This document shows, piece by piece, positions 52,606 through 55,477 of a stretch of 64,000 bases of DNA. Where the stretch lies: positions 1,497,001 to 1,561,000 of the forward strand of contig NZ_CP031844.2 in assembly GCF_003606345.3 (NCBI RefSeq), read 5' to 3'. Below the pieces are notes generated by a model, which saw only the letters and a program-made list of their open reading frames with translations, ran no database searches and was not told where the DNA came from. The first letter of the stretch is position 1, and every line of letters starts with the position of its first letter. The position numbers were made by a program, and so were the translations under genes. The DNA comes from Bartonella krasnovii. GTDB lineage: Bacteria; Pseudomonadota; Alphaproteobacteria; Rhizobiales; Rhizobiaceae.

Positions 52606-53100
52606 TTTTCTATTTTCTCGTATAAAATACCTTAAAATAAATACCTAAATTCTCATCAAAAGATTCGAAATTAAATTTATTCAATCTCTTTAGAATAATC
52701 TACGATAAAAATAAAAGGGGTAAATTATACAAAAAATAAACCTATAAAAACGAATTTATTCAACAGAGTAGTTACGAACTTTTTCTGTTGAGTGAGATAT
52801 CTCTATCAGAACAAGTTAATCATTTTAATATATAAATAATTCAAAAGTGTTATTTTGATTAATAAATACGCTGACAATTATGAAAATACTATATATACAA
52901 AAACAGACAAAACGGCTAACTGATAGGATACATCATTTTCTCAAAACTCATCTATAAATACTTTTATAAATACTTTTTGTAAAAATATTCACTTTACATC
53001 ATAAAACTCATTGACAATAATCACTTTTTTACATCCTTATTCTCTCACTTAAATGATGAATATGAGTTATGAAAGCATAATTTTTAAAGGGAGGAGGATC
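52606..53100. other. A+T-rich divergent region upstream of the mcc-like locus
   Basis: No gene. It is divergent between the coiled-coil cluster and the mcc-like genes and must contain both promoters. In-frame ATGs at 53053, 53056 and 53062 could extend the mccA-like peptide to 20-23 residues. Confidence 0.5.
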
Positions 53101-53124
53101 ATGGATCATACAGAATGTAACTAA
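53101..53124 (+). CDS. mccA: MccA-like precursor heptapeptide of a microcin C-type antibiotic
   Basis: ATG to TAA encodes seven residues, MDHTECN. E. coli MccA (MRTGNAN) is also seven residues and ends in Asn, the residue that MccB joins to adenylate. A very strong site, gggaggagg, ends 3 bp before the ATG. The stop overlaps the next start as taatg, coupling it to an mccB-like gene. These direct observations make the call convincing despite the size. An alternative is a longer precursor from ATGs up to 48 bp upstream in the same frame with the same Asn end. Whether any product is made is doubtful because mccB is broken. Confidence 0.7.
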   Translation: MDHTECN

Positions 53125-54258
53125 TGACTAGAAAAAATTCTTTTCCCTGGAATTATTTTCTAGAAAGAAGTTGGTTTGATCTACAAGTGGGGAGGAAAAA
53201 TGAAATAACAGTATCTTTTGGAAAAATACACACGTATTGTTGTTCGTGAAAAGGATGCCATTTTCGGTGCTGGTTCAAAACATTCATTATCAATGATAAG
53301 AGATTTGGGATAACTTACTCCTTATTGCAGCACAATGGATCAAAAAAAAAGACTGTCGATGAGGTTTATAATTCACTATCGTCTGTTATGCTAAAAGAAA
53401 ATTTTAATCGTGCGTTTAATTTTCTTGTTTCTAATCATTTTCTTGTCCAAGCTGAAACATCAAACAATATTCTCAATAGTCGCTATTCTAGAAGTCATCT
53501 CCATTACCAAAGTTATGGTATGCATCCAGTCTCTATCCAGCATACTCTTTTGCAAAAAAGTGTCGTCATTTTAGGCTGTGGTGGGATTGGTAATCATGTA
53601 TCAGCAATGCTTGCAGCCTCTGGTGTTGGGAAATTGACTCTTGTTGACAATGATGTGATCGAGTTGGCCAATCTTACGAGGCAAATTCTTTTTACTGAAG
53701 ATACTAGGTCTTCCGAAAACAAAAGTTCTTAAGCCTAAACTGCTACGAAGAAACAGCCAAAGTGAAATTCATGAATTACAAATGTTGATGACTGAAAAAG
53801 AGGACATTAAAAAGCTCCCCAAAGCTGATGTATGGATTATTTCTGCTGATTTTTCTGATCAGCTAGGAGTATGGATCAATGAATGGTGTGTAAAAAATAA
53901 ACAAGCCTATATAAATTCTGGTTATGTTAATGATATAGCTGTCGTTGGTCCATTTTACATACCTGGGCAAACTGGTTGTTACGCATGCAGCGCATCTATA
54001 GGCAATCTTCCAGCAAAAAGTGATCATCTTATTTATGAGGCTTGTGTTATGATTAATAATAACTTCAAAGTTGCTACATTTCCTCCTGTGAATACTCTTT
54101 CAGCCGCCATGTGTGCCAACGATGCTCTTAAATTTTGGGGTGGTTATGGAAGCCTTCTTTCCACTGATCAAAGCGTGGGAATATGGAGCAGCCAGCTCTT
54201 CATAGAAGAACGCTCTCTCAAGAAAAATCCTCACTGTAAGGTTTGTGGAACAACATAA
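53124..54258 (+). pseudogene. mccB: MccB-like ThiF/E1-type adenylyltransferase, multiply frameshifted
   Basis: Read through four shifts this gives about 377 residues with strong MccB character: an N-terminal peptide clamp starting MTRKNSFPWNYF, then SRYSRSHLHYQSYGMHPV, the nucleotide site VVILGCGGIGNHVSAML, LVDNDVIELANLTRQILF, SGYVNDIAVVGPFYIPGQTGCYAC and a final CKVCG (two Cys pairs for zinc). MccB adenylates the C-terminal Asn of MccA and makes the N-P bond. Shifts lie near 53235, 53305, 53345 (in a run of nine A) and 53700, all in the same direction. The longest intact pieces are 53325-53732 and 53782-54258. It is inactive as read, unless the sequence has errors. Confidence 0.85.
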
Positions 54259-54277
54259 ATGAACAGACCACGCACCC

Positions 54278-55477
54278 TTGCTCTCACCTATGGCTCTTAT
54301 AATGCCGTACGCATGCTCATTGGTGTCTACCATACGATTTTTTTTAATGTCGATGGGGGTGAGTCTCGCACAATTAGCACTACTTCAAGTTGTCTTTTCC
54401 ACAACTATTCTCCTGCTTGATTTTCCTTGTTCTGTTTTAACGGACAGATATCGACGTAAATATTCCGTGATAGCTGGTGTCTTTATGACAGGAGTATTTT
54501 ATCTTCTCTGCCTTCAAGCTCCTCATATGACAGCGCTTATTATTGCGCAAATTCTCTATGCAGCAGGCATTTGCATCATTGTCAGCGCCATTGACGGATG
54601 GATTTACCATTCTCTTGGTGATAAACACGATCACTTTTCGCATTATGCGCACCTTTATCACCAAGTGAATTCTTTCGGGAGTATTTTCAGTGGAATTGTA
54701 GGCATTGGAACGATTTATTACTCTGGACAATATTTTATGGGATATATTATCTCATGCCTCATGATGGGGATTATTTTTTGGGTCTTCCTTATTATTCCTG
54801 AAGAAAAGAAATCAACGATTGAAACACACAAAACAAAAACAATCTTGCACAATGCCAAGGAAACGCTCTGGATCTTTCAAAACACCGTGGGTGGAGCATG
54901 GTTTATTTTCCTCATGTGTCTTTTTAGCGCTGGAATTCAGATTATTTATCATTTTTGGCAACCAATTATCCTTGTAGGAGAAAAAATTGATCACCTCAAT
55001 GGCTCGCAAATGTTGGTCCTTATGTGCTGTCATATTGGAGCCTTTTCAGCACAGTATTTTTCAAATTTACTGATGTCGAAATATCATGTCCTTGATAAAA
55101 AATATAAGAATTCTATCAAATATTTTTCCTTCTTTTCTTCTCTGATGTGCACCGCACTTTATTTTTTCGTTCATAACAATCAAACAGTTGCATCCGTCAT
55201 TGCCTTCTCTTTAATCCATGGATTTATTTGCACTGTCCCGATAGGAGCAAAAAGCTTATTTTTCTCAGAGCTAAGTCAAACACAAACGCAGCATATTTCT
55301 GGTGTTGTTGGTGCTGTATCTTTTAGCGGCAGACTATTTTCAATTACCGTATTAAGTATTATTTCTTTTCTTCCTGCAAAAGTTTCTCCCTCTTATTATC
55401 TCATCTTACCGACCCTTACTTTTTTCACGTGTGGTTTGGTCATCATGAGATGGATAAAACATTCTCAAAAGTCTTGA
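54278..55477 (+). CDS. mccC: MFS transporter, MccC-like microcin exporter; N-terminus frameshifted
   Basis: A 399-aa open frame with about eleven membrane helices. It contains SLAQLALLQVVFS and LLLDFPCSVLTDRYRRKYSVI, the motif A loop of MFS exporters. In the preceding frame an ATG at 54259, right after the mccB stop (taaatg), encodes MNRPRTLALTYGSYNAVRML, then GVYHTIFF, a good first helix. The frame is lost at a run of eight T (54338-54345). The first helix is thus cut off; translation could start at 54278 or at ATG 54347. In the mcc context it would export the microcin and give self-protection. The MccC assignment rests on position and fold. Confidence 0.7.
   Translation: MLSPMALIMPYACSLVSTIRFFLMSMGVSLAQLALLQVVFSTTILLLDFPCSVLTDRYRRKYSVIAGVFMTGVFYLLCLQAPHMTALIIAQILYAAGICIIVSAIDGWIYHSLGDKHDHFSHYAHLYHQVNSFGSIFSGIVGIGTIYYSGQYFMGYIISCLMMGIIFWVFLIIPEEKKSTIETHKTKTILHNAKETLWIFQNTVGGAWFIFLMCLFSAGIQIIYHFWQPIILVGEKIDHLNGSQMLVLMCCHIGAFSAQYFSNLLMSKYHVLDKKYKNSIKYFSFFSSLMCTALYFFVHNNQTVASVIAFSLIHGFICTVPIGAKSLFFSELSQTQTQHISGVVGAVSFSGRLFSITVLSIISFLPAKVSPSYYLILPTLTFFTCGLVIMRWIKHSQKS

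Follow-up and report, generated by a model that had tools for sequence, protein, structure and literature searches.

Relic of a microcin C operon in Bartonella krasnovii and evidence for retention of the exporter gene mccC in its relatives after loss of mccB

Background

The best point of comparison for the locus described here is the microcin C system of Escherichia coli (mccABCDE plus mccF), in which a seven-codon mccA gene ending in an Asn codon and preceded by a strong ribosome-binding site is followed by a hairpin, then by mccB, coding for an adenylyltransferase, and mccC, coding for an exporter of the major facilitator superfamily (MFS). The same elements in the same order, A-B-C, are found at positions 53101-55477 of a stretch of 64,000 nucleotides, hereafter the window, which corresponds to positions 1,497,001-1,561,000 of contig 1 of the Bartonella krasnovii chromosome (genome G000 in our survey, 2.19 Mb in 2 contigs). 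Judged by its sequence, this locus is what is left of an mccABC operon of the microcin C family, located on the chromosome. The reading that we favour, with a probability of about 0.72, is that mccB died in this remnant operon and that MccC was then kept under selection, conferring immunity without production.

The Bartonella operons differ from that of E. coli in encoding a heptapeptide of the form MDHxxxN rather than MRTGNAN, in being chromosomal and in having no mccD, mccE or mccF beside them at L036, the single intact locus whose surroundings were read gene by gene; in the window, mccB and mccC are in addition broken. In vitro work on the B. washoensis pair has reportedly been carried out by Bantysh et al. 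in 2014. Mcc operons were found in Bartonella, inactivated in B. henselae and B. quintana, by Severinov et al. (2007), as cited in the excerpted part of PMC10949449. The window locus belongs to the same genus and carries the same genes as these operons, with lesions of its own (mccB dead, mccA intact, mccC frameshifted at a run of T). A first-pass annotation of the window, made from the sequence alone, had called the precursor new-looking; since Bartonella mcc operons and their inactivation are already in print (PMC10949449, same excerpt), that novelty was overstated, and the interest lies in the pattern across the genus rather than in the window locus. It is this pattern of mccC retention that we did not find in print; in the open-access literature we found no report of MccC retention or of an MccE-like locus in Bartonella.

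Outside the genus, the nearest named relatives of the Bartonella proteins are gammaproteobacterial. Brenneria salicis, Pantoea brenneri and Pectobacterium odoriferum have MccB proteins 72%, 69% and 64% identical to that of Bartonella, and for MccC the identities are 72% (Brenneria), 67% (Yersinia pseudotuberculosis), 65% (Pectobacterium) and 64% (Pantoea). The mccABC-like loci of Brenneria (L076) and Pantoea (L078) are intact, with the heptapeptide MDHSMNN and a hairpin. This kinship makes horizontal transfer of the mcc genes between enterobacteria and Bartonella likely. The mcc cluster of Y. pseudotuberculosis, of the cytidylate type, is matched in Bartonella by a second locus with a ThiF-methyltransferase fusion (in genome G035) and by MccE-like proteins elsewhere, whereas the window operon is of the E. 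coli-like adenylyltransferase type without a fused methyltransferase domain.

Results and discussion

A broken mccABC operon in the window

Gene borders were set by comparison with the intact MccB and MccC of another Bartonella genome (G001, locus L036), and all features given here lie on the + strand. The mccA gene (53101..53124, ATG GAT CAT ACA GAA TGT AAC TAA) has kept its frame, coding for MDHTECN followed by a stop. The mccB relic (53200..54258), of the ThiF/MccB adenylyltransferase family, has no intact reading frame: codon 3 is a stop, there are several frameshifts, and G001 MccB is matched in three pieces between which the frame changes twice. The mccC relic (54259..55477), an MFS exporter gene, matches in two pieces, being frameshifted at a T run near codon 28 and then open to 55477. 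Profile matches downstream of mccA follow the same order, with pieces of ThiF (PF00899, 3.2e-20 and 3.9e-08) and then MFS (PF07690, 1e-19). As the mccB frame is broken, the locus is a relic of an mcc operon and not a working one. The first-pass annotation had recognised such a relic, with an MccB-like adenylyltransferase and an MFS exporter in the order A-B-C, and its identification withstood checks of the protein family, the heptapeptide and the grouping of the ThiF-like gene; the breakage of mccC, at a run of 8 T (54338-54345), is a lesion that it did not mention.

Its account of the junction between mccA and mccB fared less well. There the 'taatg' at the end of mccA had been read as an overlap with the start of the next gene, and a ThiF profile match was expected over 53124-54258. 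ThiF-family pieces do match in this interval, but mccB begins at 53200 (ATG AAA TAA), 99 nt from the mccA start and 76 bases past the 'taatg' ATG, and the 41-codon open reading frame (ORF) starting at that ATG (53124) matches nothing in Pfam or NCBIfam at E 0.1. A direct mccA-mccB overlap was rejected because the relatives place the mccB start at 53200. The overlap had also been thought to set the locus apart from E. coli. The E. coli template, as far as the excerpted part of PMC6495379 goes, is laid out in the same way from mccA to mccB: its Asn codon is followed by AACTAATGG, and a hairpin precedes mccB. Neither the 'taatg' nor an overlap of the two genes therefore distinguishes the locus from E. 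coli.

Could the ThiF-like gene be an ordinary thiamine or molybdopterin gene, with the heptapeptide lying upstream by chance? Pieces from the window do match ThiF and MoeB family models, but among the matches listed (25 of 41 for the N-terminal piece, 2/2 for the C-terminal piece) every one is below its family cut-off. An intact Bartonella MccB (L007) has E. coli MccB as by far its nearest solved relative (3h5n, E 3e-108, against 2.2e-21 for ThiF and 7e-15 for MoeB), the peptide recurs in place in relatives, and in G001, the relative examined gene by gene, a moeB-like gene exists besides mccB. Intact Bartonella MccB is 47% identical to the E. coli protein, and two C-x-x-C pairs, with four Cys in all, are aligned between them; the C-terminal piece from the window (53782-54255) is 46% identical to it over 149 residues. 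On the contrast between the 3h5n and ThiF matches we rejected the thiamine/molybdopterin alternative, to which we leave practically no chance; the protein of intact relatives is closest to MccB and not to thiamine or molybdopterin enzymes, the outcome on which the first-pass annotation had staked its identification. It is also very improbable that the window locus still works, its frameshifts being sequencing errors or being bypassed by homopolymer slippage. The intact mccA and the position of the only mccC lesion seen, in a T run, agree with such a reading; against it stand the codon-3 stop and several indels of mccB, two of them common to another genome (G049), from which the window mccB differs with no departure from evenness over codon positions. 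These two shared lesions are frameshift insertions (at one of the columns concerned, G027 also has an insert), and on this sequence evidence mccB died before the window lineage split from G049, its nearest relative, and production is lost.

Exporter genes without a production gene

We surveyed 71 Bartonella genomes, reading the states of mccB and mccC from matches, alignments and locus inspection. The C-terminal piece of the window MccB is matched in 35 of them at E 1e-3, weak matches such as that in G005 (24%) probably being to other ThiF genes, and MccC is matched in 39 at E 1e-10; in one of the latter (G053) the match is to a distant MFS paralogue only, so that 38 genomes carry mccC as an orthologue or a relic. 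All three genes are intact in 5/38 (G031, G064, G001, G070 and G050), and thus the intact orthologues for which the first-pass annotation advised a search do exist; loci of the B. washoeensis, B. alsatica and B. taylorii types are intact. One further genome (G023, with an MccB identical to a B. henselae protein) has intact mccB and mccC and an mccA altered to MDYRNYNA, in line with the inactivation reported for B. henselae in the excerpt of PMC10949449. By comparison, 15/38 genomes have a dead mccB and an intact mccC (G049, G021, G039, G035, G048, G022, G027, G026, G051, G066, G054, G068, G067, G025 and G017; G035 is so classed on a single codon-3 stop), and the reverse is seen in one (G009), a 15 to 1 asymmetry (binomial p 5e-4, the species being non-independent). 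In the remaining 16/38, the window genome included, both genes are dead (G005 and G016 are classed as dead from short mccC matches only). In G017 and G025 the MccB piece finds no match, and 401/1059 relic positions are left.

Selection on mccC was gauged from differences by codon position and from omega values based on pairwise Nei-Gojobori (NG86) counts. Nine genomes share mccB lesions (G051, G066, G054, G068, G067, G055, G020, G025 and G017): 13 alignment columns are missing in all of the first seven, and several insertions occur in at least 6 of the nine, G025 and G017 showing the same pattern in the parts that they retain. Across four disjoint pairs from this group the differences between mccB relics are spread about evenly over the three codon positions (130/153/119 of 3172 sites), whereas those between mccC genes in three disjoint pairs are mostly at third positions (33/19/164 of 3645). 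While mccC is frameshifted in G055 and G020, the seven group members in which it is intact have a mean mccC omega of 0.092 (21 pairs), compared with 0.124 (15 pairs) for the six genomes in which mccB and mccC are both intact.

Because mccC recombines, the cleanest test is offered by three members of this group, G066, G067 and G054, in which relic divergence (K 0.095, 0.131 and 0.144) is similar to the synonymous divergence (dS) of mccC (0.100, 0.098 and 0.156); relic and mccC have therefore probably been inherited together since before these genomes split, mccB itself having died before that split. Variable sites in their relics number 50/64/50 by codon position (of 998), while those in mccC number 11/3/44 (of 1215), with an omega of 0.06-0.11. 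The window and G049 give a comparable picture, with mccB relics that differ at 18/8/14 of 1053 sites by codon position and mccC genes that, behind the T run, show 13 non-synonymous differences at 878 sites (Nd) and 33 synonymous differences at 247 (Sd; p 2e-13). Taken together, the codon-position contrasts and the window-G049 counts show statistically that mccC was constrained by purifying selection after the death of mccB, in the window up to some point before the 8-T frameshift. The kind of constraint is hinted at by the 15 MccC proteins from genomes with a dead mccB (orphan MccC), which have 0-6 changes at 204 columns invariant in five producers and in the MccC of Brenneria and Pantoea, as compared with 4-8 changes at 208-212 invariant columns for a left-out producer. 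This conservation speaks for the original function, although several of the orphans are closely related to producer G031.

What might an orphan exporter do? In intact relatives, by analogy with E. coli, a short mccA message that stops at the hairpin before mccB would give a surplus of the heptapeptide MDHxxxN. MccB would adenylate the C-terminal Asn of this peptide, and MccC would export the resulting peptide-nucleotide, which would inhibit aspartyl-tRNA synthetase wherever a cell takes it up and processes it. An orphan MccC would then pump out intact microcin C coming from other bacteria. Self-immunity of microcin C producers needs an efflux pump according to the consulted part of a review (PMC6795089), and E. 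coli MccC exports intact, not processed, microcin C according to that of PMC7157772; from these two reports we infer a protective role, with a pump that outlives production.

Several observations weigh against this reading of immunity without production. The mccB-dead sets outside the nine-genome group have mean mccC omegas of 0.151 (G026/G022/G048, 3 pairs) and 0.111 (G049/G021/G027, 3 pairs), on either side of the 0.124 of the live set, and the window-G049 relic comparison, with only 40 differences (evenness p 0.15), is a weak test. Polarised changes in mccC number 8 synonymous and 6 non-synonymous on the window tip and 6 and 1 on that of G049, so the window counts may reflect relaxed selection since the frameshift. 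The mccC tree puts G051 with G021/G039 (B. grahamii type), G068 with G031, whose operon is intact, and G017 beside the window and G049 (support 78), and the relic divergence between G025 and G017 (0.033) does not fit their mccC dS (0.325); with such recombination between lineages, some of the low omega values could come from producer donors. Loss has reached the exporter too, mccC being broken in 16/38 genomes, and while the mccC of relatives has been kept under selection without the production gene, subject to the recombination caveat, that of the window is itself frameshifted. As for the conserved columns, B. henselae MccC is changed at 9/204, and the close kinship of several orphans with G031 would in itself keep their number of changes low. 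Finally, since MccC exports only unprocessed microcin C (PMC7157772, as excerpted), pumping alone may protect only partly, and B. henselae is listed in the accessible part of PMC9790009 with YepA only, without YejA, which makes import of microcin C by Bartonella uncertain.

Two other explanations of the orphan exporters have to be weighed against continued immunity. MFS pumps are versatile, and MccC may have been repurposed for another substrate after production was lost, a case for which it counts that purifying selection by itself does not name the substrate. The near absence of change at producer-invariant columns speaks for the old substrate, a point weakened by kinship with G031, and the mean omegas of the mccB-dead sets (0.092, 0.111 and 0.151) bracket that of the live set; we consider repurposing unlikely, while giving it the most credence of the alternatives. 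A rather smaller chance goes to the possibility that there was no selection after the loss, mccB having died recently or mccC having been repeatedly re-imported from producers, so that time for decay was short. The recombination just described would allow this, and some mccB losses do look recent, G021 and G039 each having one frameshifting deletion and G035 the codon-3 stop only. In the G066/G067/G054 trio, however, mccC varies mainly at third positions even though the relic is about as divergent as mccC is at synonymous sites, and the window and G049 behave like this trio. Immunity without production thus remains our preferred explanation.

The heptapeptide gene

The first-pass annotation had reported a seven-codon ORF ending in Asn with gggaggagg upstream, and both are present as described, the Shine-Dalgarno sequence of mccA at 53089..53097 (G-rich sites occur in many relatives too). 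Counting both strands, the 64 kb window has five seven-codon ATG ORFs ending in Asn, and only that of mccA has a strong Shine-Dalgarno sequence as defined in our counting script; in the entire genome, ATGGAYCAT-N9-AAYTRA is found a single time. An mccA site was recognised at 21 Bartonella loci, 11 of which, including the window, code for an intact Asn-ended heptapeptide (MDHTECN, MDHLECN, MDHSECN, MDHMGCN, MDHIGFN at 4 loci, MDHRGFN, MDRIGFN and MDHIFCN). At the other 10 the gene is altered by loss of the start or stop, replacement of Asn, an added residue or a frameshift; the mccA relic of G026 is counted among these and was excluded from the hairpin alignment below. Intact Asn-ended heptapeptides accompany 6/7 loci with an intact mccB, the exception being B. 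henselae, and the short ORFs that were expected upstream of mccB in relatives are thus there. The Cys of the peptide does differ from E. coli MRTGNAN, as had been remarked. It is not distinctive within Bartonella: Cys precedes Asn in 5/11 intact heptapeptides, on which ground we rejected it as a peculiarity of the window genome. MDHTECN itself is also found in B. grahamii (G021), there with the stop lost.

Hairpin and promoter

Between mccA and mccB lies a hairpin (53140..53170) that resembles a terminator, like its E. coli counterpart; in the window copy two of its pairs are mismatched. When the spacers of 22 loci (20 from Bartonella plus Brenneria and Pantoea) are aligned, 89.4% of cells are paired in a 13-pair hairpin and 9/13 pairs have changes on both sides, which 0/500 shuffles reach (the shuffles ignore kinship); slid versions attain at most 70.7% paired and 6 pairs with compensatory change, a comparison in which the hairpin has an advantage through having been drawn from one of the aligned sequences. 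The E. coli terminator at this place yields a surplus of short mccA mRNA, according to the excerpt of PMC6495379.

In an upstream alignment of 20 Bartonella and 2 enterobacterial loci, a putative promoter -35-like hexamer, TTGACA, stands at 53011..53016, relatives having TTGACA or variants such as TTTACA; the -10 is uncertain. Between this and the ribosome-binding site, an inverted repeat close to TCAC-N4-GTGA was noticed by eye at 53045-53058. Similar repeats occur in many Bartonella loci and in Brenneria, that of the window being imperfect, and they are perhaps a 5' mRNA hairpin or an operator.

The T run of mccC

The run of 8 T (54338..54345) is the sole lesion seen in the window mccC, separating its first 28 codons from 375 open codons; the closest in-frame relatives, of the same clade, have 7 T. 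Residues 28-405 of the window protein are 80% identical to the intact MccC of a relative. Runs of 8 T occur in four genomes, and three other copies have 6 or 9. Besides the window genome, the four include G030, G033 and G038, each with a nonsense codon as well, and a functional mccC in all 8-T genomes was rejected because 3/4 have such a codon. The run seems prone to slippage, and the frame may be lost there repeatedly.

Other mcc-type loci

Two chromosomal sites in the genus harbour mcc operons, one between dapB-gpmA and a porin gene (the window site) and one between a cytochrome c gene and moeB-gshB; G018 (B. florencae; L053 and L054) has a decayed copy at each.

The window genome also has a second mcc-type locus (contig 1, 267,244-271,704; L120:5245-9708), where an MccC-like MFS gene (31% identical to MccC) and a decayed region are accompanied by a methyltransferase-like ORF and a gene for an intact 589-aa protein. 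MccE is known to have a decarboxylase half besides its acetyltransferase. The 589-aa protein combines a pyridoxal phosphate (PLP) decarboxylase with a GNAT acetyltransferase, and its closest match of known structure is the acetyltransferase domain of MccE (3r95, E 2e-48), the C-terminal acetyltransferase described in the excerpt of PMC7157772. MccE-like proteins are present in 15/71 genomes, one of these matching over the acetyltransferase domain only. Their omega is 0.24-0.38 in the five genomes that a filter kept of the 14 with a near full-length match, the acetyltransferase lying below the decarboxylase domain in 10/10 pairs.

An MccB of the second-locus type was not detectable in the window genome. 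Only two genomes yielded the corresponding ThiF gene, G035 and, with a piece of it, G031, other matches being weak and to other ThiF genes. In G035 (L067:5800-8582) an MFS gene is followed by a ThiF-methyltransferase fusion, the N-terminal part of which is split off by a frame break; this fusion resembles the bifunctional MccB of Y. pseudotuberculosis, for which the accessible part of PMC9239234 describes such an arrangement. In 20 regions inspected, exporter and MccE gene of the second locus are both intact only in G000 and G018; MccE stands beside a broken exporter gene in G049, G020, G050 and G055 (with one stop in the G055 match), and the exporter is found without MccE in G064, G039, G054 and G035. 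This patchy pattern is compatible with, and does not prove, protection genes outlasting the gene for the maker.

A third type of ThiF gene, of ~371 aa, has MccB as its nearest solved relative (E 2e-25; L066:4884-7219). It adjoins an MFS gene in L066 and L070, its start is also present in L068 and L069, and it sits behind an ORF that by eye resembles an AAA-type ATPase; nothing seen at this ThiF-MFS locus makes a convincing precursor peptide.

Conclusions

Whether there have been repeated shifts across Bartonella from producers to immune non-producers, with mccC held by selection through species splits and the MccE-like gene of the second locus also kept, in some genomes and in that of the window, without its maker gene, is a question on which we see the odds as even. 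If there have been, microcin C-type compounds would still be in circulation among bacteria with common hosts and vectors, and orphan MccC is predicted to protect against the MDHxxxN compounds of relatives. Bacteriocin ecology predicts a cycle of producers, immune non-producers and sensitive strains, which is often inferred from gene presence and absence; where a dead production gene lies beside a living pump gene, a single locus lets one measure, in many species, how old the loss is and how strongly the pump has been selected. The pattern points to antagonism between bacteria that have mammalian blood and arthropods in common.

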